Assembly (NCBI GenBank): GCA_001735895.1
Contig: DS021200.1
Span: forward strand, 158,670-218,315
DNA length: 59,646 nt
Direction: 5' to 3'
Origin: Olavius algarvensis Gamma 3 endosymbiont
Lineage (GTDB): Bacteria; Pseudomonadota; Gammaproteobacteria; GCA-001735895
Shown here: piece by piece, positions 7,052 through 18,949 of the stretch
Layout: the number at the start of each line of letters is the position of its first letter
How positions within the stretch are numbered: the stretch's first letter is position 1
The notes under the pieces: model-generated
Seen by the model: the letters and a program-made list of their open reading frames with translations, nothing else
Database searches by the model: none
Told to the model about the DNA's origin: nothing
Translations under genes and position numbers: made by a program

Positions 7052-8116
7052 CTAAGGCCAGACAAAGGCCGGCGAAAAAGAAGGCGGCGCCAGCGAATCC
7101 AATATATTGAATGCCTGCCAGTTAGCTTGATCGATCATCTGGATTTGCGGGCCGGTGTGTCTCAGGAGATCGCGTCCTTCCAAGATGCGCACTGCCTGAT
7201 CGATCGAAATACGACCCTGCATCACGGGTGCGTCGGTGGGTGCGGCGAGAATGCGTCCACGCCGAATGCCGCGATATACCGCCGGGGTAAAATAAGTCGA
7301 AACAACCTCGATTTGACGATTGAGGTTGCGATTGCGCAAGGTACTGATAGCCGCTTCGGCCATCAGCGCATTACCGACGATATAGTCAACCTGCGGGTGA
7401 CTTTCCAGCACTTCCTGTACCAGGGTTCGCTGGATTTCCTTACCGGTATCACCCCATTTGGTTATGACAATCTCGACTGCGCTATCTTTCAGGCCCTGCT
7501 TGAATCCGGTTTCGATAAAATCGACCCAACCCGCACCCTGCGGTCCGGGGAACCAGGCCACCGTTACCGGTTCGCTTCCGGCTTGGTGTTTGCGCGCGAG
7601 ATACTCGCCGGTTACCTGACCCATAGTGGTCCAGGATACGCCGGACTTTGCGCTAATTCCGGTATCTTCAATATCGTTTACGGTCGCCAATACGGGCATT
7701 TTTTTGGCAATCCTGGTAATGCTTCGATTGAGTCCCCGAAATGAAACCGTACCGACGATCAAGGCATCGGCGCCTTGGGTAGTGCACTGTTCTATTTGCT
7801 GCCGCTGGCGTTCGAGATTGGGATAACCACCCGCTTCGACCAGGGTAAACGAGATACCGAGTCGGCGTGCTTCCTGCACCATGCCGTAGTTTACGTTCAA
7901 CCAATAGGCGTCTTTCAAGTGCGGGTAGGAAATACAGAGATGCCATTTCCGGCTGGCTGCGGTGGTCGGTTGATAATCGATCATTCGACTATCGCTGGAA
8001 TAGTCAAACGGTGTCGCCCAGGTTTCGAGCTTCCAAACCTCGGCCCTGGCAGTAGGGGCTGCGATTAGTATGACTAAAAGACAGGCAAGAATTGGAAAAA
8101 AATAGAAGCTTTTCAA
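7052..8116 (-). CDS. torT: TorT-like periplasmic TMAO sensor protein
   Basis: Periplasmic-binding-protein-like sensor that in E. coli binds TMAO and signals to TorS. From the TTG at 8116 the product is 354 residues and starts with a clean signal peptide, MKSFYFFPILACLLVILIAA then PTARA; AGGA lies 5-6 nt upstream of this TTG. A longer frame from an ATG at 8218 has no signal peptide at its start and would overlap the torS start, so it was rejected. The mature protein has the sugar-binding-type fold of TorT (HLCISYPHLKDAYWLNVNYG; ADALIVGTVSF; DYIVGNALMAEAA). It is divergent from torS, as in other tor systems. The ligand is inferred from the family and neighbours. Confidence 0.85.
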   Translation of the reverse strand: MKSFYFFPILACLLVILIAAPTARAEVWKLETWATPFDYSSDSRMIDYQPTTAASRKWHLCISYPHLKDAYWLNVNYGMVQEARRLGISFTLVEAGGYPNLERQRQQIEQCTTQGADALIVGTVSFRGLNRSITRIAKKMPVLATVNDIEDTGISAKSGVSWTTMGQVTGEYLARKHQAGSEPVTVAWFPGPQGAGWVDFIETGFKQGLKDSAVEIVITKWGDTGKEIQRTLVQEVLESHPQVDYIVGNALMAEAAISTLRNRNLNRQIEVVSTYFTPAVYRGIRRGRILAAPTDAPVMQGRISIDQAVRILEGRDLLRHTGPQIQMIDQANWQAFNILDSLAPPSFSPAFVWP

Positions 8117-8156
8117 TATTTTCCTGACAGTAAAACCTGAGGTGAAAACATTGTAC

Positions 8157-8179
8157 CCTTGCAATTTGCGACTGCAAGG
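8157..8179. promoter_or_regulatory. Inverted repeat in the torT-torS divergent region
   Basis: Perfect 7-bp arms CCTTGCA (8157-8163) and TGCAAGG (8173-8179) separated by 9 bp, ending 14 bp before the torS ATG. It could be an operator in the shared 77-bp intergenic region or a hairpin in the torS leader. It does not resemble the decamers upstream of tmoX, so I do not assign it to TorR. Confidence 0.35.
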
Positions 8180-8193
8180 TGCAGCATTTTGAA

Positions 8194-11130
8194 ATGCGTA
8201 AGCTCGGCATTGCGACAAAAATTTATCTGGCCTTCGGTGGGATTTTCCTACTGGCGGTAGTGGCGTCTTCCATCGGTTGGAAGGGATTTACGCGTGTCAC
8301 TGAATCGCAAAACTCGGTCATCGACCGGGCGATTCCCGGATTGCGACAGGCGCATCGGCTGTCCGCATTGAATGCTTCGATCGGGGCTGCCTCCGCACAG
8401 CTATTGCGCAGCAACAACGAAACCGAACGTATCGAGATCAGTGCCGCCTTGTTCTCCGAAGTCGCTCAGGTCAATGCATTACTGGACGATTTCGAGCGAA
8501 AAGGATTCTCGCTGGGATCATTGCAGTCGCTACGCCAAACGGTGAGCAACATAGAATACATGCTGCGCCGGCAAAACGATCTGGTTGGTCAACGAATTCG
8601 CCAGCAGGCGCGTTTCACGCAACTGGCCGCCAGTTTGATCGCCACTACCGAAGAGTTAAACGATCTGGCGGATTCCTTGGTTGCCAATGCCGCGGCGACC
8701 ACCACTGCAATCACCTCGAATCTGTATGACATGGTCGAGGACGACGCCAATAAGCAACAACTTTACCAGGTTTTCGACAGGCTGGTCGAAGTCGATCTAG
8801 ACGCGATGGAACGTATGTACGAACTGCGGCTGCGTAGTGCAAATTTGAATGGGCTGTTTAACCGGGTAGCGAAGGAATCCGATTTACAGGAGTTGGATCT
8901 CCTGCGCCGACGCACCGCGGAAACCATTTCGATCCTGAAACACCGGGTGAGTGAGATCAACGACCCGCAAAGGCGTGACAAGGCAACCGGACTGCTTTCC
9001 GCAATGGAAATCGACAATGGGCCGCTCTATGTCTACGGTATTTTCGAAACGCGCATTTCCTTACTGGAAATAGACAATTCCCTGACCCGGCTTTCCCTTG
9101 AAACGGCCCAGGCCTCGCAAGCACTGAACGGTATCGTCAATGAATTAAACGCGACCGGCGGCGCATTGATTAACCGGGTTTCGACGACCGCAAAGGATTC
9201 ACTCGATAGCAGTCGCCGATTGTTCGGCGGAATATCGATTGTTTCGATACTGGTCGCTGCAGCCATCTTATGGTGGTTTATAAAGCGCAATGTGGTACGG
9301 CGGCTGTTGTCGCTGCAATCGGCTACGCATTCGATCACCCGCGGCGATTACGACGTCGATATCATCGTCGAAGGCCACGACGAGTTAACCGATATGGGCA
9401 TGGCACTGCGCGGTTTCCGTAATTATGCAATCCACAACCGCAAGCTGGATGAAGAACTACGCCAGCACAAGGCGCATCTGGAAGAACTGGTTGAAGAACG
9501 CTCCGAACAGTTGCGGGAAACCAACCAGATGTTATCCGAGGAAGTGCAGAATCATGCGTTGGCACGCGTTAAAGCCGAGCAGGCGAACCAAGCCAAAACG
9601 GCATTCCTCGCCACCATGAGCCATGAATTGCGCACGCCCTTGAGCGGGGCGCTAGGCACATTGAGATTACTTTCGGAGACTGATTTACAGTCGCTGCAAC
9701 TCGACTACGTACGCATCATTAGTGCGGCCAATGAAAGCTTGCTGGATATCGTAAATGATATTTTAGGTTACTCACAACTCGAAGCAGGTAAGTTGAATAT
9801 CGAAAACAGGCGCTTTGATCTGACCGAACTGCTAGCCAACGTGATTGGCTTAATGATGGTCTCGGTGCGTGAGAAAAACAATAGTTTGCAGCTACAAATG
9901 GAAGACCTGCCAACACGCTGGTTGGAAGGCGATTCGGGCAAATTGCACCAAATCCTGATCAACCTGATCGGCAACGCCAATAAGTTTACCGATAACGGCA
10001 GGATAATACTGCAAGTCGATAGGCTGCCTAACGATCGCCCGGAATCGATGACTTTGCGTTTCTCGGTAGTCGACACCGGTATCGGTATTGCCCGGGAGAA
10101 ACAGGAAGATATTTTTCAGGCGTTTACCCAGGTCGATACCAGCAGCGCCAGGCTTTATGGCGGTATCGGCCTCGGCCTCGCCATCTGCGAACGGCTGGTC
10201 AATGCGATGGGCGGCAAAATAATACTGGAAAGCGAACTCGGTAAAGGTACTAGCATCGGCATTGAAATCGATCTGGAAATCAGCCAATCGGTTTCTCCGG
10301 CGCAACCGAATCCGGTATCGACAGCTGCCATCATCGAAGGAGTCGGGGTACTGATGGTCGAAGACGATGCCACCAACAGTATGGTTACCGCCAATTACCT
10401 GCAACAGCTGGGGCACCATGTGACTGCCGCTGAGAGCGGCGAAGCAGCGTTAATGCTGCTGGATGAAGGCGGTATGTCGCTGGTGCTACTCGATATCAGC
10501 TTGCCCGGCATCGATGGCTTGACGATTCTAAAATACATTCGCACCCATGCCGACGCCACAATTGCGAATTTGCCGGTGATAGCGATGTCGGCACATGTTT
10601 TTACCGAAGAGGTCGATCAATATCTAAGTGCCGGCATGAACGGTTTTCTGGGCAAGCCGTTTTCGATGGAGGATCTCGAACAAGCGATTGCAAAAGCATT
10701 CAGGGGGGACGCTGCTTTTATCACCAAAAGCAGCGAACCGAGAGACTACAGCCGCCTGAAACAAATCGATACCTCGATGATCGAGCTTGATATCAATCGG
10801 CTGGGTATGGCAAACGTCGAGCGCTTGGCGGGATTATTTTTTCAATCCGCCGAACAACTGAAATCCGAATTGATCGCGGCGCTGAATCGGGGTGATTTCG
10901 AAAAAATTGAAAAACTGGCGCATAAAATGAACGGCGCGGCCGGCAACTTTGGTCTCGAAAGATTATGTGCGCTGCTGGCCGGGATCGAAACCGAGGCCGG
11001 CCAGGGCGTTGCCGTAACGGCTGCCTCACGTAAACGATTCGAGACGGAATATAACGCGGCCGTCGCCGCGCTTGACATTTACCTGTCGCAACAGGGCAAA
11101 CCATCGGGGAAACGGGTTTCATATAATTAA
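8194..11130 (+). CDS. torS: TorS-like hybrid sensor histidine kinase (HK-receiver-HPt)
   Basis: Inner-membrane sensor of a four-step phosphorelay; TorS reads TorT and phosphorylates TorR. From the ATG at 8194 (GTG at 8179 is an alternative) it has 978 residues. An N-terminal TM helix is followed by a long all-helical periplasmic domain (about residues 30-345), a second TM helix near 350, HAMP, coiled coil, HisKA with SHELRTP (H477), HATPase with N and G boxes, a receiver with D767 in VLLDISLPG, and a C-terminal HPt with H910 in AHKMNGAAGNF. This order and the periplasmic domain are those of TorS, not BarA or ArcB. It converges on torR with 13 nt between stop codons. Confidence 0.92.
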   Translation: MRKLGIATKIYLAFGGIFLLAVVASSIGWKGFTRVTESQNSVIDRAIPGLRQAHRLSALNASIGAASAQLLRSNNETERIEISAALFSEVAQVNALLDDFERKGFSLGSLQSLRQTVSNIEYMLRRQNDLVGQRIRQQARFTQLAASLIATTEELNDLADSLVANAAATTTAITSNLYDMVEDDANKQQLYQVFDRLVEVDLDAMERMYELRLRSANLNGLFNRVAKESDLQELDLLRRRTAETISILKHRVSEINDPQRRDKATGLLSAMEIDNGPLYVYGIFETRISLLEIDNSLTRLSLETAQASQALNGIVNELNATGGALINRVSTTAKDSLDSSRRLFGGISIVSILVAAAILWWFIKRNVVRRLLSLQSATHSITRGDYDVDIIVEGHDELTDMGMALRGFRNYAIHNRKLDEELRQHKAHLEELVEERSEQLRETNQMLSEEVQNHALARVKAEQANQAKTAFLATMSHELRTPLSGALGTLRLLSETDLQSLQLDYVRIISAANESLLDIVNDILGYSQLEAGKLNIENRRFDLTELLANVIGLMMVSVREKNNSLQLQMEDLPTRWLEGDSGKLHQILINLIGNANKFTDNGRIILQVDRLPNDRPESMTLRFSVVDTGIGIAREKQEDIFQAFTQVDTSSARLYGGIGLGLAICERLVNAMGGKIILESELGKGTSIGIEIDLEISQSVSPAQPNPVSTAAIIEGVGVLMVEDDATNSMVTANYLQQLGHHVTAAESGEAALMLLDEGGMSLVLLDISLPGIDGLTILKYIRTHADATIANLPVIAMSAHVFTEEVDQYLSAGMNGFLGKPFSMEDLEQAIAKAFRGDAAFITKSSEPRDYSRLKQIDTSMIELDINRLGMANVERLAGLFFQSAEQLKSELIAALNRGDFEKIEKLAHKMNGAAGNFGLERLCALLAGIETEAGQGVAVTAASRKRFETEYNAAVAALDIYLSQQGKPSGKRVSYN

Positions 11131-11143
11131 CCCGGGCTACCGA

Positions 11144-11860
11144 CTAAAATACCTCGCTGGCAAATAAATATCCCTCACCATGCACCGTCAAGATTATCTG
11201 CGGTGCGTGGCTATCCTGTTCGATTTTATTGCGCAGACGCAAAACCAGCACATCGATAGTCCGTTCGTTGGGCGACCATACCCTGTGGGTTACTTTTTCC
11301 ATCAACCATTCGCGATGCAATATTTTACCGGGATGCTCGAGGAAGGTCACCAGCAATTCGAACTCGCCACGCGTCAGTGACAGTTTATCTTGCGTATTCG
11401 ATGACAGGCAGCGGCGAGACAAATCCAGCGTCCAACCTGAAAATGTCTTGCTGCGCTGCTTATGCAGTCGGCTTTGGTCGGACTGCTTGCGTCGAATCAA
11501 ATTTTTTACCCGTGCCAGCAACTCGCGCGGGTTGAAAGGTTTAGTGACGTAATCGTCGGCGCCGATTTCGAGGCCGACTATGCGGTCGACCTCATCGTCA
11601 CGCGCCGTCACCAAAATAATGCCGACATCGGTTTTTTCACTAAGCTCTCTTGCAATTTGCAGACCATCGTTGCCGGGCAATTTAATATCCAGCAACACCA
11701 CATCTATGGCCGACTCTGTAACCATACGCGCGACGTCATTGCCATCTTCCGACTGACTAACGCGATAATTTTCGGACTCGAAATAGGCCGCGATTCGGGC
11801 CCGCGTGACAGCGTCATCCTCAACAATTAGCACATGATGAGTGAAGTTGGTATCAGCCAC
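11144..11860 (-). CDS. torR: TorR-like OmpR-family response regulator
   Basis: Two-component regulator of 238 residues: receiver with phospho-acceptor D58 in VVLLDIKLPG and the conserved K in VTKPFNP, then an OmpR/PhoB winged helix (TRGEFELLVTFLEHPGKILH; RTIDVLVLRLRNKIE). Sequence and position next to torS and torT support TorR. It is read divergently from tmoX, with the 327-bp intergenic region between them holding candidate TorR sites. In E. coli TorR activates torCAD; here its likely target is the adjacent importer (inference). The start ATG at 11860 has no strong ribosome-binding site. Confidence 0.9.
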   Translation of the reverse strand: MADTNFTHHVLIVEDDAVTRARIAAYFESENYRVSQSEDGNDVARMVTESAIDVVLLDIKLPGNDGLQIARELSEKTDVGIILVTARDDEVDRIVGLEIGADDYVTKPFNPRELLARVKNLIRRKQSDQSRLHKQRSKTFSGWTLDLSRRCLSSNTQDKLSLTRGEFELLVTFLEHPGKILHREWLMEKVTHRVWSPNERTIDVLVLRLRNKIEQDSHAPQIILTVHGEGYLFASEVF

Positions 11861-11970
11861 TTTGATCGCGATTTATTTCAGGATGACCCCCTGGAAGGCC
11901 TAGGATGGTATCAGATACTTCCCACGCGGACTATACGAACCACTTTCAAAATACTTTTTCGATTAATGAA

Positions 11971-12045
11971 ATGTTAACCGATATTAACCGATTGTTTTTT
12001 CTGTTAACAATTTGAAATCCACGGTTTTTAATCACTAATTATAAT
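11971..12045 (+). promoter_or_regulatory. Candidate tor boxes and -10 element of the tmoX promoter
   Basis: Three related decamers fall on an exact 10-bp register: ATGTTAACCG (11971-11980), ATATTAACCG (11981-11990) and, one register later, CTGTTAACAA (12001-12010); the slot 11991-12000 is ATTGTTTTTT. E. coli TorR binds direct repeats of the decamer CTGTTCATAT, which resembles the last copy. A consensus TATAAT lies at 12040-12045 with no recognisable -35, as expected for an activator-dependent promoter. With a start site near 12052 the repeats would span about -81 to -42. Binding by TorR is inference. Confidence 0.6.
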
Positions 12046-12187
12046 CGTTATTGCTACCGCAGCGGCGACCTTGCCGCCGGCGAGTAATCTAAAACGGAAT
12101 TCTATAAAAACATTCGAATTATAAGGCGCCCTCAAGATTGAAGCGGCAGCCGTATTTACAACCAATTCATAATCCTGAGGAGGAAAA

Positions 12188-13138
12188 ATGAATTTCTCGA
12201 AACTTAGAAATAAAATGATGGCCGGGGCTATTGCACTGGTATTTGCCAGTATCGGCACTCAGGCATGGGCCAAAGACTCCAGCAAGCCAATCGTGATTCC
12301 TACGCACAACTGGTCAAGCCAGGTGGTAATGGCCTATGTCATTGGCGGGATATTCGAAAGCATGGGTAACAATGTCGAGTACAAACCGGCGGATTCCCAG
12401 GCTGTATACGAAGCGATTCGTCTCGGTGATATCACCATTTCGCACGAAGTCTGGCAATCAACCTTCGGCAAGTCGTTTTATAACGCCATGGCCAAAGGCG
12501 GAGTTATCGACGCCGGCACGCATGCTGCGCCGACACTTGAAGAAATGGGTGTCCCGCAGTACGTGATTGACGACAATCTCTGCCCGGGCCTACCCAACTG
12601 GGAAGCATTGAAAAACTGTAAAGACGTATTTTCGACCGCTGATTCCGGTGGCAAAGGCCGTTGGCTGGAAGGCCCGCAAAGCTGGCATGGCGACCTGATG
12701 CCGGTGCGCGTTAAAGCACTGGGCCTGGAAGACGACTATGTCGTCAAATTCGCCGGCGGCGCCGATGCAATCTGGGCGGAACTGGCGTCGGCCAAGAAAG
12801 AAGGCTGCGGCATCATTACCTTTAACTGGACGCCGAACTTTACCGATGCGGAAGGTTTCGTATTCATCAAGTTTCCGGGATATACCGATGGCTGCCGCGT
12901 GGTTGACGGCGGTGACGGAGCTTGTGGTTCACCCAACGGCTGGCTCAAAAAAGCGGCTAACTATAAATTCCCCAAGACCCACCCGGCCGCTTATACCGCG
13001 TTTTCCAAACTGTCATTCACGACCGCTCAGATCGGGCAAATGGCCGCACTGGTTGACGTCGATAAAATGAGTCATCAAGACGCCGCCAAGAAGTGGCTGG
13101 CCGATAATAAAGACGTCTGGATGCCTTTTACCCAATAA
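12188..13138 (+). CDS. tmoX: TMAO/betaine-type ABC transporter substrate-binding protein (TmoX-like)
   Basis: Secreted binding protein of 316 residues from the OpuAC/ProX superfamily. The signal peptide ends at AWA (residues about 1-28), giving a mature N-terminus near KDSSKPIVIPTHNW. Several Trp and Tyr residues that could build a cation-pi box for a trimethylammonium ligand are seen (THNWSSQ, EVWQSTF, GPQSWHGD, FNWTPNF). The resemblance is closer to TmoX of marine bacteria than to E. coli ProX, and the TorTSR neighbours point to TMAO; choline, betaine or carnitine cannot be excluded. A strong GAGGAGG lies upstream of ATG 12188. An intrinsic terminator follows, suggesting that the binding protein is made in excess over the membrane parts. 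Confidence 0.75.
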   Translation: MNFSKLRNKMMAGAIALVFASIGTQAWAKDSSKPIVIPTHNWSSQVVMAYVIGGIFESMGNNVEYKPADSQAVYEAIRLGDITISHEVWQSTFGKSFYNAMAKGGVIDAGTHAAPTLEEMGVPQYVIDDNLCPGLPNWEALKNCKDVFSTADSGGKGRWLEGPQSWHGDLMPVRVKALGLEDDYVVKFAGGADAIWAELASAKKEGCGIITFNWTPNFTDAEGFVFIKFPGYTDGCRVVDGGDGACGSPNGWLKKAANYKFPKTHPAAYTAFSKLSFTTAQIGQMAALVDVDKMSHQDAAKKWLADNKDVWMPFTQ

Positions 13139-13195
13139 TAACTAGCAGTACCGGTGCTCGTTACCCCATAGAGGCGAAGCATCGTTGAGCTCCGA

Positions 13196-13233
13196 CCCTC
13201 CCTCGACGTGCGTGGTCTTGGGAGGGATTTTTT
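13196..13233 (+). terminator. Intrinsic terminator/attenuator after tmoX
   Basis: CCCTCCC (13196-13202) pairs with GGGAGGG (13220-13226), with an inner GAC/GTC pairing, and is followed by A and six T. A second hairpin, GGTTCCC (13235-13241) with GGGAACC (13250-13256), follows at once. Partial termination here would lower tmoV and tmoW expression relative to tmoX. Confidence 0.75.
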
Positions 13234-13269
13234 CGGTTCCCGCCATACAGGGAACCAGACTCGCTTTGT

Positions 13270-13275
13270 TATAAT
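13270..13275 (+). promoter_or_regulatory. Candidate -10 of a second promoter upstream of tmoV
   Basis: A consensus TATAAT lies 37 bp after the tmoX terminator and 107 bp before tmoV. No good -35 is visible at the expected distance. It could provide tmoVW transcription independent of tmoX. Confidence 0.4.
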
Positions 13276-13382
13276 CGCACTCGTTCAGGTTTGTATTGTT
13301 TTAGTCGATAGGCTGAGATGGCCGGATTACCGCAGCAGCAATTTGAGATGACTCCGTTTTGAGATGAATCCAAGGAACAAAA

Positions 13383-14489
13383 ATGACTAACGAAACCAGC
13401 AATACTAGCGATACCGCCCATACCGACAACGATCGTCCCGTTATCAAGTGTGATTCCGTCTTTAAGATATTCGGTGAAAACACCACAGAATTGATGCAAC
13501 AAGCAAACGGCCGGATTGACGTAGAAGCGTTCAAGCAGGCGGGGTGTATCTTTGGCGTCAACAATGCATCCTTTGAAGTTCACAAAGATGAAATGCTCAT
13601 CGTCATGGGCTTGTCCGGATCCGGAAAATCAACGCTGTTACGCTGTATTTCGAAACTGACTGACACCACCGCCGGCAATATATACATCGATGGCGAAGAT
13701 TTATTGGCGATGAATCCAAAGCAGCTGATCGAGCTCCGTCGCAACAAGATGGGCATGGTATTTCAGAGTTTCGCGCTGTTGCCGCATAAAACCGTTCTCG
13801 AAAATATCGCCTTCCCGTTGCAGGTTAAGGGCACGAACACAAAAGATAGTATGCAACGCGCCATGAAAATGGTTGAGCTGGTTGATCTCGGCGGGCGTGA
13901 GAATTACTTTCCGAGACAATTGTCCGGTGGTCAGCAGCAACGGGTTGGTATTGCCAGATCCCTGGCGGTAGAGCCGGATATCTGGTTTCTGGATGAACCG
14001 TTTTCAGCGCTTGATCCGCTGATCCGAAAAGAAATGCAGGATGAATTTTTACGTCTGCAGGAAATGCTGCATAAAACGATTCTATTTGTGACGCATGATT
14101 TCGACGAAGCCCTGCGACTGGCTGACAGAATTGCAATCATGAAAGATGGAGTAATCGAACAATGCGATACGCCGGCGAATATTGTTCTTCATCCGGTCAC
14201 CGAATATGTCGCAAAGTTCACCAACGACGTGCCGCGCGAAAAGGTATTGACTTGCGGCAACGTCATGGAAGATATCGCTACCGCATCCGATCTGAGTGAA
14301 TTAAAGGTCAGCCGAGACGCAATTATCGAAACGGTTGCCGAAGCGATCCTGAGCGAGGAGAAACCGGTTGCCGTCGTAGACGAAAATAATGAAGCGGTAG
14401 GTAGCTTACATGCGTCCCACGTAATCCACGTACTGTTTAGCAAGGACCAACCGGGAACATCGCAAGACCTTCTCAGGGCGGGCAAATGA
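13383..14489 (+). CDS. tmoV: ABC transporter ATP-binding protein (TmoV-like, ProV family)
   Basis: ATPase subunit of 368 residues for quaternary-amine uptake. Walker A is GLSGSGKST (residues 76-84), the signature is LSGGQQQRVGIARSL, and Walker B is WFLDEPFSALD. The C-terminal 80-90 residues keep only a weak trace of the paired CBS domains that act as the ionic-strength switch in OpuA/ProV (one VAVVDENNEAVG stretch). This suggests that the transporter is not a classical osmotic-stress importer. AAGGA precedes ATG 13383. The tmoW gene starts within 5 nt of the stop codon. Confidence 0.82.
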   Translation: MTNETSNTSDTAHTDNDRPVIKCDSVFKIFGENTTELMQQANGRIDVEAFKQAGCIFGVNNASFEVHKDEMLIVMGLSGSGKSTLLRCISKLTDTTAGNIYIDGEDLLAMNPKQLIELRRNKMGMVFQSFALLPHKTVLENIAFPLQVKGTNTKDSMQRAMKMVELVDLGGRENYFPRQLSGGQQQRVGIARSLAVEPDIWFLDEPFSALDPLIRKEMQDEFLRLQEMLHKTILFVTHDFDEALRLADRIAIMKDGVIEQCDTPANIVLHPVTEYVAKFTNDVPREKVLTCGNVMEDIATASDLSELKVSRDAIIETVAEAILSEEKPVAVVDENNEAVGSLHASHVIHVLFSKDQPGTSQDLLRAGK

Positions 14490-14493
14490 TGTG

Positions 14494-16554
14494 ATGAATA
14501 ATATTTCCAGGCATCTGCAACTCACACAATTTGCAGCTTTGCTGGTCGTGTTTTTCATTTTATGTTTTGCGATCGATCCGTCGGAAAACAACATCCTCTG
14601 GCGTCTGCCCGCATTTTTGGCCGCCGTCCCCGAGATGCTGAATAGTTCAGTCGAATACGCGATGTTCGAATGGATGCCGATTCAAACCTATAACCCGGAA
14701 ATCGAAGATTACGAAGATTCGGCGCTATTAATTGAAGTAACCCGATCCATATCGCGCGCCGTGCTTTTCGGGATTGAATTAATCCGCGAAATTCTGGTGG
14801 GCGGCCAAAAAACCATAGTCGCTTTCACCAGCTGGGACTTTGTCAGCGAAAATGAGTGGGCGGTCTGGCCGGCACTGCCCTGGACCGTCGTCGCCGGGGT
14901 CGCAATTATCCTGGGTTACGCGCTCAGCGGGCGCTGGCTTGCAATCCTGGTGGGCTGCGCGACTACCTATATTGCTGTTTTCGGTCAATGGGAACCCGCA
15001 ATGGAAACGCTCTCGTTCGTATTGGTTGCGGCGCCGGCCTCGGTCTTGCTCGGAGTTTTCCTGGCTATTCTGGCCTTTAAGTTTCGAGTTTTTGAAAGCG
15101 CATTGATGCCATTGCTCAACGTAGCCCAGACCATGCCCCATTTTTCCTATCTGGTGCCGGTAACCGTATTTTTTGGTGTGGGCGACCATGCCGGCGCCAT
15201 CGCGACCATCATTTTTGCAACGCCGCCGATGATTCGGCTGACCTTATTAGGCCTCAAAGGGGTATCCCCGGAAGTGCTCGAAGCGGGCATGATGAACGGC
15301 TGCAACAAGCTTCAACTCATGTTCAAGGTGCTGATACCTACGGCCCGGCACGATATTCTGGTAGGGGTAAACCAGGTAATCATGCAATGCCTGGCAATGG
15401 CGGTCATTGCTTCATTTATCGGGGCCAAAGGCCTTGGCTTCAATCTATTGCTGGCACTGAATCAGCTCAGAATAGGGCAAGCCCTGGAACTGGGTATCTG
15501 TATCGTATTGATTGCCGTGGTTCTCGATAAGCTATCGCTGGGCTGGGCTAACAAGCAAATCGACTATTTTGCCGACCTCTCTTTCAGCCAACGCAATAAG
15601 TACCCTCTCATGATGGCTGCGATCCTGGTGTTAGGCGTGTTATTGGCGTCCATCGGCAGCCTGATTTTCAAGAACGAGATCAATTATTTTTATCTCATCC
15701 CGCACAACCAGGGAATTACCACGGAAAACTTTTGGCAATCCGGCGTCGACTGGATGGTGGAAAATTGGTATGCGAGCCTGCAAGCCTTCAACAAGGGGTT
15801 GATTATTAACCTGCTGGTGCCAATGAAAAATGCTTACCTGAGCATGCCGGTAGCAGCAACCTTTGTATTGGTGATGGGGATTGGCTACATCGTGGGCGGC
15901 CTTAGATCGGCTTTAGTCGTAGGTGGGTTACTGCTATTTATCGCATCCACCGAATGGTGGGACAGAGCGCTGATTACGGCTTATATGGCAACCTTTGGGG
16001 TGCTGGTATCGGTAGTAATTGGCACGGTGACCGGTTCCTTATGCGCACAGAACTCATTCGCGACAAGAGCTATCCTCCTGCTTTGCGATACCTTCCAGAC
16101 CTTCCCGTCGTTCATTTATTTGATTCCGGTTATCATGCTCTTTGGCGTCACCGATACTTCGGTGTTAATTGCCGTCGTTATTTACGCTACCATCCCTGCG
16201 ATTCGCTACACGGTGGAAGGACTCAGCAATGTGCCGCAATCCCTGCAGGATGCCGGCACCATGTCGGGCGTCAGTCGAATCCAGCGATGGCTGCAGATAG
16301 AAATGCCGCTTGCCTTTCCCCACATCATGCTGGGTATCAATCAAACCGTGGTTTTTGCACTATTTATGGTAATCATCGGCGCGATGATCGGAACCGATGA
16401 TTTGGGGCAGCTTATCTTGAAGTCCCTATCGGATAAACACGGTATCGGCAATGGACTGATGCTGGGCCTGTGTGTCGCTTTTATAGGATTGGCGGTCGAT
16501 CAAATATTGCGCACCTGGGCGCATCAAAGAAAACAGGCACTGGGATTGGCGTAA
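14494..16554 (+). CDS. tmoW: ABC transporter permease with two fused permease domains (TmoW-like)
   Basis: Membrane protein of about 686 residues containing two BPD_transp_1 modules in tandem, so one chain could supply both halves of the channel. Each module has the EAA-type loop: LEAGMMNGCNKLQLMFKVLIP in the first and LQDAGTMSGVSRIQRWLQIEM in the second. Classical ProW is about half this length with one module; the double form is the arrangement I associate with TmoW. A GTG at 14491 is an alternative start three bases before this ATG. Gene order X-V-W and the tight V-W junction support one uptake system. Confidence 0.8.
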   Translation: MNNISRHLQLTQFAALLVVFFILCFAIDPSENNILWRLPAFLAAVPEMLNSSVEYAMFEWMPIQTYNPEIEDYEDSALLIEVTRSISRAVLFGIELIREILVGGQKTIVAFTSWDFVSENEWAVWPALPWTVVAGVAIILGYALSGRWLAILVGCATTYIAVFGQWEPAMETLSFVLVAAPASVLLGVFLAILAFKFRVFESALMPLLNVAQTMPHFSYLVPVTVFFGVGDHAGAIATIIFATPPMIRLTLLGLKGVSPEVLEAGMMNGCNKLQLMFKVLIPTARHDILVGVNQVIMQCLAMAVIASFIGAKGLGFNLLLALNQLRIGQALELGICIVLIAVVLDKLSLGWANKQIDYFADLSFSQRNKYPLMMAAILVLGVLLASIGSLIFKNEINYFYLIPHNQGITTENFWQSGVDWMVENWYASLQAFNKGLIINLLVPMKNAYLSMPVAATFVLVMGIGYIVGGLRSALVVGGLLLFIASTEWWDRALITAYMATFGVLVSVVIGTVTGSLCAQNSFATRAILLLCDTFQTFPSFIYLIPVIMLFGVTDTSVLIAVVIYATIPAIRYTVEGLSNVPQSLQDAGTMSGVSRIQRWLQIEMPLAFPHIMLGINQTVVFALFMVIIGAMIGTDDLGQLILKSLSDKHGIGNGLMLGLCVAFIGLAVDQILRTWAHQRKQALGLA

Positions 16555-17257: not shown

Positions 17258-18133
17258 TTAGCGATTAATTCCGAGACGCAATGCGGCCTGGCTGGGCGTA
17301 GCGGGTTCGCGACCGAGTTCGCGAATGATACGCACCGCGCGCTCGACCAGTTGAAGATTGGTAGCGAATTCGCCTTTGTCGAGATAGAGATTGTCTTCCA
17401 GACCGACGCGGCAATTGCCGCCCTGGCTGGCCGCCTGGGCGACAATCGGAAACTCCTTGCGCGATATCCCGAACGCACTCCAGACGGCATTCGGCGGCAG
17501 CAAGCCTTTCATCACGCTCAGTATTTCGGGAGTCGCCGGTGAAGCATGTGGAATACCCAGGCAAAGCTGAAACATCGGCGCGCCGTCGATCAAGCCTTCC
17601 TCGATCAGCCGCCGCGCGAACATGATATGCCCGGGTTCGAATACTTCCAGTTCCGGTTTCACCCCGAGTTCGCGGATGCGCTGCGCCATGATGCGCAAAT
17701 GCGCCGGCGTGTTGACAAAAATCGTTTCGCCGAAATTGAAGCTGCCGACGTCGAGGGTACAGATATCGGGCTGTAATTCCTCGATGTGACGCAAACGCTC
17801 GAGCGGCTGCACCAGGGTGGTCCCGGGACCGCCGACTGCGGCGTCTTCTTGTCCGGGAGCAAAACGCGCACCCTCGCTGGTAGTCAGGTTGATCAGCACC
17901 TCGCTACCGGAGTCACGGATGCGCTCGACTACCTCGCGAAACAGCGCCGGATCGCCCGAGCGCATCCCGCTCTCGGGATCGCGCACGTGAATATGCACGA
18001 TCGCGGCGCCCGCGCCGGCGGCGGCGATACAATCAGCGGCAATTTGCGCGGGTGTAATCGGGTAATCGGGATGTTTCCCTTGATTGTTGTGACCGCCGCA
18101 AACCGCGCAGGTCAGAATCACTTCGTCGACCAT
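17258..18133 (-). CDS. BKACE family beta-keto acid cleavage enzyme
   Basis: Zinc-dependent enzyme of 291 residues in the 3-keto-5-aminohexanoate cleavage enzyme family (Kce, DUF849). These enzymes condense a beta-keto acid with acetyl-CoA to give acetoacetate and a new acyl-CoA. The metal-binding VHIHVRD (HxH) motif and the conserved GLEDNLYLD near the C-terminus are present. The family covers many substrates, including dehydrocarnitine; the sequence alone does not tell me which. A crotonase gene ends 6 nt upstream, so the two are an operon and probably act in sequence on a CoA intermediate. Confidence 0.85.
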   Translation of the reverse strand: MVDEVILTCAVCGGHNNQGKHPDYPITPAQIAADCIAAAGAGAAIVHIHVRDPESGMRSGDPALFREVVERIRDSGSEVLINLTTSEGARFAPGQEDAAVGGPGTTLVQPLERLRHIEELQPDICTLDVGSFNFGETIFVNTPAHLRIMAQRIRELGVKPELEVFEPGHIMFARRLIEEGLIDGAPMFQLCLGIPHASPATPEILSVMKGLLPPNAVWSAFGISRKEFPIVAQAASQGGNCRVGLEDNLYLDKGEFATNLQLVERAVRIIRELGREPATPSQAALRLGINR

Positions 18134-18139
18134 GGACGT

Positions 18140-18949
18140 CTACTCCCCCTTGAAGTTCGGCGTTCGATTTTCGTTAAACGCCAGCACCCCTTCGCGCCGA
18201 TCCGCCGTAGGCACGGTGCGGTTATAGGCTTCTATTTCGAAGGCCAGCCCATCGGCCAGCGACATTTGCAAACCGCGATGGATAGCCGCCTTGGCCTGGC
18301 GCACGGCAAGCGGCGCATTGCCGGCAATTTCGGAGGCTACCTGCAGGACTTCTTCGAGCAATTTATCCGCTGCAAAGACTTCGTTGACCAGGCCCCATCG
18401 ATACGCCTCCGCCGCATCGAAGCGCCGCGCCGACAGAATCAATTCCTTGGCGCGACGCTCGCCCAGCGCCCGCGCCAGGTTTTGCGTGCCGCCGGCGCCC
18501 GGAATGATCCCGAGGCTGGTTTCGGTCATCGCAAACTGGGCGCTGTCGGCGGCATAAATAAAGTCCGCCGCGCAAGCCAGCTCACAGCCGCCGCCAACGG
18601 CGGCGCCATTGACCGCGGCAATCAGCGGAACCGGGCAATCGATGACCGCGCGGATCATGCGCTCAAATATCAGATGTTGAGCCCGCCAGGCCGCGTCGCT
18701 CATGCCGCCGCGCTCCTTGAGATCGCCGCCGGCGCAAAACGCGCGCTCGCCGGCGCCGGTCAATACGATACAGCGAGTATCGCCCGCGTCCAGCGCGAGA
18801 GTTTCAAAACAGAGTATCAGCTCGGTCGCCATTTGCGTATTGAAGGCATTGGCGCTATCCGGTCGATTCAAACTGAGCTGCAAAACCTGTGGGCGGGGAT
18901 TTGCCAGCGCGAGCGTAGCATAGCTGTTATCGGTCATACTGGGTGGCAA
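18140..18949 (-). CDS. Enoyl-CoA hydratase/isomerase (crotonase) family protein
   Basis: Crotonase-fold CoA enzyme of 269 residues. The oxyanion-hole segments are present (GERAFCAGGDLKE and AAVNGAAVGGGCELACAADF), as is the TETSLGIIPGAGGTQNLAR segment carrying the usual catalytic Glu region. The TTG at 18949 has GGAG five bases upstream; an ATG at 18937 without such a site is the alternative. It is the first gene of the pair with the BKACE enzyme and is divergent from a 36-residue membrane protein gene. The substrate is unknown; a hydratase acting on a carnitine- or amino-acid-derived acyl-CoA is possible. Confidence 0.85.
   Translation of the reverse strand: MPPSMTDNSYATLALANPRPQVLQLSLNRPDSANAFNTQMATELILCFETLALDAGDTRCIVLTGAGERAFCAGGDLKERGGMSDAAWRAQHLIFERMIRAVIDCPVPLIAAVNGAAVGGGCELACAADFIYAADSAQFAMTETSLGIIPGAGGTQNLARALGERRAKELILSARRFDAAEAYRWGLVNEVFAADKLLEEVLQVASEIAGNAPLAVRQAKAAIHRGLQMSLADGLAFEIEAYNRTVPTADRREGVLAFNENRTPNFKGE

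Follow-up and report, generated by a model that had tools for sequence, protein, structure and literature searches.

A TorTSR phosphorelay joined to a TmoXVW importer in the Olavius algarvensis Gamma 3 endosymbiont, a candidate switch for trimethylamine N-oxide uptake

In Escherichia coli the TorTSR phosphorelay acts on the torCAD operon, and a TorS or TorT gene is therefore easily taken as a sign of trimethylamine N-oxide (TMAO) respiration. TMAO importers of the TmoXVW type are known from Ruegeria pomeroyi and SAR11, and a TorS encoded on plasmid pAMI5 of Paracoccus aminophilus has been assigned to a TMAO reductase operon in the part of the published account that we consulted (PMC3925955). 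Here we describe a 59,646-nucleotide stretch (the window; contig DS021200.1, positions 158,670 to 218,315, assembly GCA_001735895.1) of the Olavius algarvensis Gamma 3 endosymbiont, a gammaproteobacterium in which torT, torS and torR directly adjoin tmoX, tmoV and tmoW. We consider it likely, with good confidence in a reading whose regulatory part is deduced from gene context and promoter sequence, that this locus represents a branch of the Tor relay controlling TMAO import for demethylation, not respiration. Relay and importer are ordinary members of their families and both are already known; it is the coupling that is the variant, and it is without a recognised published description, none having been recognised in a literature search beyond whose reach most subscription journals lay. 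The cluster comprises the following features:

7052-8218, minus strand: torT, periplasmic TMAO sensor (TIGR02955, 356.8 bits, curated cut-off 310).
8179-11130, plus strand: torS, hybrid sensor kinase with Hpt (TIGR02956, 738.5, cut-off 676.5).
11144-11860, minus strand: torR, OmpR-type response regulator with receiver and Trans_reg_C domains (NF008034, 287.3, cut-off 275).
11972-12008, plus strand: predicted TorR-box array of TGTTAAC-like boxes at 0, +10 and +30 (three-box pattern, 0 mismatches).
12040-12045, plus strand: TATAAT, predicted to serve as -10 element for tmoX; the accompanying -35, immediately downstream of the boxes, is poor.
12188-13138, plus strand: tmoX, OpuAC-type TMAO-binding protein (nearest solved structure 4xz6).
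13383-14489, plus strand: tmoV, ATPase (ABC_tran, PF00005; TIGR01186 324.3, slightly below 326.6).
14491-16554, plus strand: tmoW, double permease (two BPD_transp_1 stretches).

As in E. coli, the same three proteins with their phosphorelay domains are encoded, torR is divergent from the target operon, and direct-repeat boxes precede that operon. Unlike the E. coli layout (torT-torS / torR-torCAD), the neighbouring operon is an importer, the positions of torT and torS are swapped and torCAD is missing, and the window TorT lies apart from the four reductase-group sequences in the TorT tree. The importer resembles TmoXVW of R. pomeroyi and SAR11 in its closest structure, in its complete R. pomeroyi-type binding pocket and in sharing a genome with a TMAO demethylase (Tdm), but it is adjoined by a two-component relay and a box array, whereas the consulted parts of the TmoXVW accounts describe no TorTSR coupling. 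At the pAMI5 TorS locus the six genes recur in unchanged order, and the printed TorS is most likely the torS of that locus (old and new tags are unmatched); the portion of the pAMI5 report available to us draws no link to an importer, to which our reading ties the relay.

The initial annotation had assigned torT, torS and torR with all expected domains, followed by a TmoXVW-type importer in place of torCAD, and both assignments hold, the open reading frames being as given there and the three relay genes passing curated cut-offs. TorS carries all expected Pfam domains (sensor domain, HAMP, HisKA, HATPase, receiver and Hpt), scoring below the cut-off of a second TorS model, NF008543 (393 vs 982). 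Its H-D-H phosphorelay residues, previously numbered H477, D767 and H910, are exact if counted from Met6 but become H482, D772 and H915 from the GTG; judged from the sequence and its relatives, Met6 at 8194 is probably the start, as is a GTG near 8128 for torT. Six TorT positions (D103, Y105, W106, Y132, W196 and Y309), which we take to be the TMAO contacts in the Vibrio structure 3o1h, are identical in 24/24 tmo-group and 4/4 reductase-group sequences. W196 separates sensor TorT proteins, including that of Gammaproteobacterium F7, from ABC-type look-alikes, in which the position is F or P in 14/14. Because the six pocket positions are kept and W196 is replaced in the ABC-type sequences, TMAO most likely remains the ligand of the window TorT. 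Phylogenetic analysis of 43 TorT sequences placed the 14 ABC-type proteins in one group (support 100/99), the four reductase-group proteins in another (98/94), and the 24 tmo-group proteins with that of F7 in one fork of modest support (83/52); the tmo group takes in L057 and L061, which are cut by contig ends, and L059, where torT lies away from torS. The idea that TorT might instead deliver a substrate to a CUT2-type ABC importer as its binding protein was rejected, since such look-alikes form their own group, lack W196 and have no TorS in the stretches opened.

The best solved-structure match of the window TmoX is R. pomeroyi TmoX (4xz6; 274 bits, runner-up 27). According to the part of PMC8918994 that we consulted, the TMAO pocket of the R. 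pomeroyi protein is formed by W55, W102, F106, E131, W177, F220 and W222, and 7/7 of these residues are present in the window protein (W42, W89, F93, E118, W166, F212 and W214). In a TmoX tree built without two short pieces (L041, L165) and five Rhodobacteraceae loci (L084, L085, L088, L090, L091), the window protein grouped with 4xz6 inside a 98/96 fork and apart from other OpuAC-type proteins, with L080 outside the fork on a long branch. Characterised ChoX and ProX were no part of this tree and were compared by model scores alone, TmoX reaching 40.2 bits with the ProX model (cut-off 215) and 27.2 bits with the ChoX model (cut-off 379); the ChoV model also remained below its cut-off (312.5 bits vs 484). 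At the sequence level, the grouping with choline- or proline-binding proteins that the initial annotation had named as a refutation did not appear: TmoX groups with its characterised namesake and stays far under the choline and ProX cut-offs. That annotation further noted a near-absence of the CBS osmosensor in tmoV; a Pfam scan indeed found no CBS domain there, but its absence says nothing particular on regulation.

The pairing of relay and importer recurs well beyond the window genome (a 4.87 Mb assembly, 87% complete). TorT over cut-off was found in 8/41 genomes of an order-level sample spanning three genera and in 3/369 genomes of a class-level sample, every one belonging to the window's genus. 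In seven of the eight TorT-positive genus genomes torR or the whole relay stands beside tmoX, with torT within the cluster in five (G000, G001, G008, G010 and G023) that have torT, torS, torR and tmoX-V-W in identical order and orientation (tmoW cut in G001). G022 has torS, torR and tmoXVW together and torT on a separate contig near tdm, and in G011 the cluster is broken by contig ends, a partial torR adjoining tmoX. A scan of named genomes returned 21 TorT loci, 16 of which show the six-gene order (tmoW cut by a contig end in one): four metagenome-assembled genomes of the window's genus, MH1_Bin6 and 11 Rhodobacteraceae, mostly Leisingera. The other five are two loci at contig edges, the G022 torT, Gammaproteobacterium F7 and one ABC-type look-alike. 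Among plasmid records, 82 had a TorT match and 20 were opened. The six-gene order is found in four of these (Paracoccus aminophilus, Leisingera thetidis, Gemmobacter fulvus and Paracoccus yeei), a molybdoenzyme adjoins the relay in two (Azospirillum ramasamyi, and an E. coli-type layout on pF16EC0470-1), two are Vibrio stretches with torS-torT only, and the other 12, whose stretches hold no TorS, are ABC-type, three of them unannotated there and placed by tree. Chance neighbourhood was rejected, as the pairing recurs in two classes.

Three relatives (G016, G029 and G002) have the same chromosomal site as the window, in the order glnS, acyltransferase gene, RND gene, tmoXVW, beta-keto acid cleavage enzyme gene and enoyl-CoA hydratase gene, with torTSR absent. 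Mapping TorTSR linkage on the TmoX tree gave six changes, at least four of them forced by well-supported branches, which indicates that the relay has been gained or lost repeatedly beside related importers. It seems to us probable, with less assurance than for the window itself, that uncultured Gammaproteobacteria and Rhodobacterales hold a distinct branch of the Tor relay, with TMAO uptake and, in some members, Tdm as its regulon; such a branch would be assimilatory, its respiratory target exchanged for a nutritional one, and would move with the importer between genomes, carrying its boxes along.

In seven gammaproteobacterial loci the stretch between torR and tmoX contains TGTTAAC-like boxes with a 10-bp register, and in 5/7 a TATAAT comes after them. 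Box scores were compared between seven tmoX loci linked to the relay and 10 without such linkage (L029, L033 and L035, likewise unlinked, fell outside this test). All seven linked promoters score 15-21 of 21 at offsets 0, 10 and 30, with 0/300 shuffles as high in six and 3/300 in L055, and 9/10 unlinked promoters score 11-13. As the motif was drawn from the linked set, it is the unlinked promoters that provide the meaningful control. The window genome holds a single three-box site at up to 3 mismatches, the pattern having been derived from this and related promoters, and the 41-genome scan found five sites with up to 2 mismatches in the genus, every one upstream of a linked tmoX. As a motif drawn from outside these promoters, the E. 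coli tor box, given as CTGTTCATAT in the consulted part of PMC9239176, was sought as well. Among 15 alphaproteobacterial loci, many of which are closely related, its best two sites beat shuffles (≤1/500 as high) in 12, with 8/500 shuffles as high in L156, 12/500 in L093 and 189/500 in L154; the E. coli promoter itself, as control, scored 20 of 20.

A Tdm scoring 1217.7 bits (cut-off 1100) is encoded in the window genome at C3:5892-8246, on the window's own contig and some 150 kb ahead of it; another contig, C10, carries a second demethylase-like stretch, of which the scanned piece reached 1009 bits. Elsewhere tdm lies near torT in G023 and G022, as a fragment at a contig end in G008, near tmoW in L062, a relative without the linkage, and right behind tmoW in MH1_Bin6; Tdm is over cut-off in 10/11 Rhodobacteraceae carriers and is split into two contig pieces in the eleventh. 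FMO-like genes of Tmm size share a contig with tdm in at least eight genus genomes (G002, G004, G016, G017, G021, G022, G023 and G029), the G022 copy being a trimethylamine monooxygenase (826.6 bits, cut-off 675). The initial annotation had left room for a reductase elsewhere in the genome and proposed a search for torA/torC and for tmm/tdm, and of these only tdm came to light: no FMO-like gene of Tmm size was found in the window genome, where tdm is close to a contig end, and no TorA/BisC-type reductase or torCAD was found in this 87% complete genome, the best match of a whole-genome search reaching 131 bits against a model cut-off of 1017.55 that the E. coli control exceeded. Of 10 molybdopterin-family matches in the genome, the NCBIfam scan covered seven loci (all but L007 and two C1 fragments), and three family members scanned whole reached at most 162 bits with the TorA/BisC model.

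With an importer as neighbour and a matching box array before it, the relay most likely switches on TMAO uptake as food and not for respiration. TorT would bind periplasmic TMAO and activate the TorS phosphorelay; phosphorylated TorR would occupy the tandem boxes at 11972-12008, beside a promoter whose -10 is good and whose -35 is poor, and turn on tmoXVW; the importer would carry TMAO into the cytoplasm, where Tdm would take a methyl group as a one-carbon unit and leave dimethylamine. We infer in this scheme that TMAO is the signal at this locus, that TorR binds the boxes, that it activates rather than represses, and that the purpose is nutritional. The earlier proposal, in which TMAO uptake rather than a reductase is under the relay's control, gains support from linkage in two classes, the box array, the TorT and TmoX pockets, the presence of Tdm and the failure to find TorA/BisC in the genome. 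If this is true, some TorS/TorT annotations mean uptake and demethylation, the prediction of methylamine turnover from genomes changes, and the coupling supplies a candidate switch for tmoXVW.

Several observations weigh against this interpretation, beginning with the boxes. The 7-base box was defined on the same gammaproteobacterial promoters on which it was then scored, and one unlinked promoter (L071) reaches a score of 15, with 1/300 shuffles as high. Two linked tmoX promoters, those of G001 and G023, escaped the three-box pattern. Allowing up to 3 mismatches gives 12 sites in the genus vs 10 for the reversed control, and 15 vs 14 in a second genus; with totals this near the control, only low-mismatch sites carry weight (mismatches are not itemised for the control sites). 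By the E. coli tor box, 0/7 gammaproteobacterial loci are significant and L080 is not, so that the unchanged presence of this box in the gammaproteobacterial promoters was rejected. A search around the two Tdm-like genes of the window genome found no box array, which led us to reject control of Tdm by the same boxes there and means that Tdm may be outside this regulon. Regarding linkage, G025 (a 66% complete assembly whose contig stops inside torR) has the relay and no close TmoX was found in it, and Gammaproteobacterium F7 has TorTSR with no importer beside it and no Tdm over cut-off. On the metabolic side, a HODM-type dimethylamine enzyme was not found in the window genome and occurs in 1/41 genomes, and a BisC-type gene (884-963 bits) lies elsewhere in five of the eight TorT-positive genus genomes; these two points bear on the alternatives considered below.

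The alternative that survives best, though we regard it as unlikely, is osmoprotection, in which the relay controls TMAO import as we propose, but the imported TMAO serves the cell as a compatible solute or pressure protectant and is not mainly eaten. The importer does belong to the betaine/proline family, and no dimethylamine route was found in the genome for the single enzyme type sought. Set against this are the demethylase in the genome, which lies near the cluster in several relatives, and the FMO-like gene on the tdm contig of relatives, with one copy confirmed as a trimethylamine monooxygenase.

It is very unlikely that the target of the relay is still a TMAO reductase encoded elsewhere in the genome, with the position next to the importer incidental or the regulon dual. 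This explanation can draw on the established action of TorTSR on torCAD in E. coli, a layout also present on pF16EC0470-1, on the molybdoenzyme adjoining the relay of A. ramasamyi, and on the BisC-family genes, which besides the five genus genomes occur in 3/13 other TorTSR genomes. However, beyond the failure to find TorA/BisC in the window genome, none over 170 bits was found in 9/11 Rhodobacteraceae carriers (it is present in two, and in MH1_Bin6); the BisC-type copy examined (L094) is below both TorA cut-offs, and its start leaves no room for a signal peptide; and the contigs of the five BisC-type genes hold no listed box site.

We give an equally low probability to an importer serving mainly another trimethylammonium compound (choline, betaine or carnitine), with a relay that senses that compound, or TMAO as its proxy. 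SAR11 TmoX also binds choline (Kd 2.5 µM), as does that of strain DSS-3, according to the consulted part of PMC8918994. M replaces the pocket phenylalanine F106 in four linked gammaproteobacterial TmoX (L053, L054, L055 and L058) and in L080. Genes for a beta-keto acid cleavage enzyme and an enoyl-CoA hydratase also lie downstream of the importer, convergent with tmoW (17258-18949). Against this idea, the window TmoX keeps the whole TMAO pocket and is far under the ChoX and ProX cut-offs, and the sensor pocket is TorT-type. A choline/betaine operon, as the cleavage enzyme might suggest, was rejected, both downstream genes remaining at the same site in relatives without torTSR.

Some further observations concern the neighbourhood of these genes. 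In G023, a 3-mismatch box site is flanked by an ammonium transporter gene and by tdm, which is suggestive only. Genes for BisC-type molybdoenzymes are found within a few kb of a distant TmoX-like protein (28-29% identical) on four contigs (G022:C131, G023:C57, G024:C223 and G030:C26), possibly pairing an importer with a cytoplasmic N- or S-oxide reductase. In several relatives tmoW is followed by a universal stress protein, a DAO-type FAD oxidoreductase or both (L053:12334-14242, L060:4376-6336 and L055:15287-16615), and no match to either was found in the window. Directly upstream of tmoX in loci without TorTSR stands a stand-alone GcvT-like protein (L064:10560-11741, L065:7547-8722 and L070), the L064 copy of which scores 185 bits with the TMAO demethylase model without that model's N-terminal half. 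The tmoV of G029 (L066:8618-9579) appears in two tblastn pieces, possibly owing to a frameshift in the gene or the assembly. Finally, eight plasmid records (L159-L164, L166 and L173) give the name TorT to a CUT2-type ABC binding protein in which W196 is replaced; pxpA-like, biotin carboxylase and carboxyltransferase genes adjoin it, and the stretch holds no TorS. For this protein family the name looks wrong.

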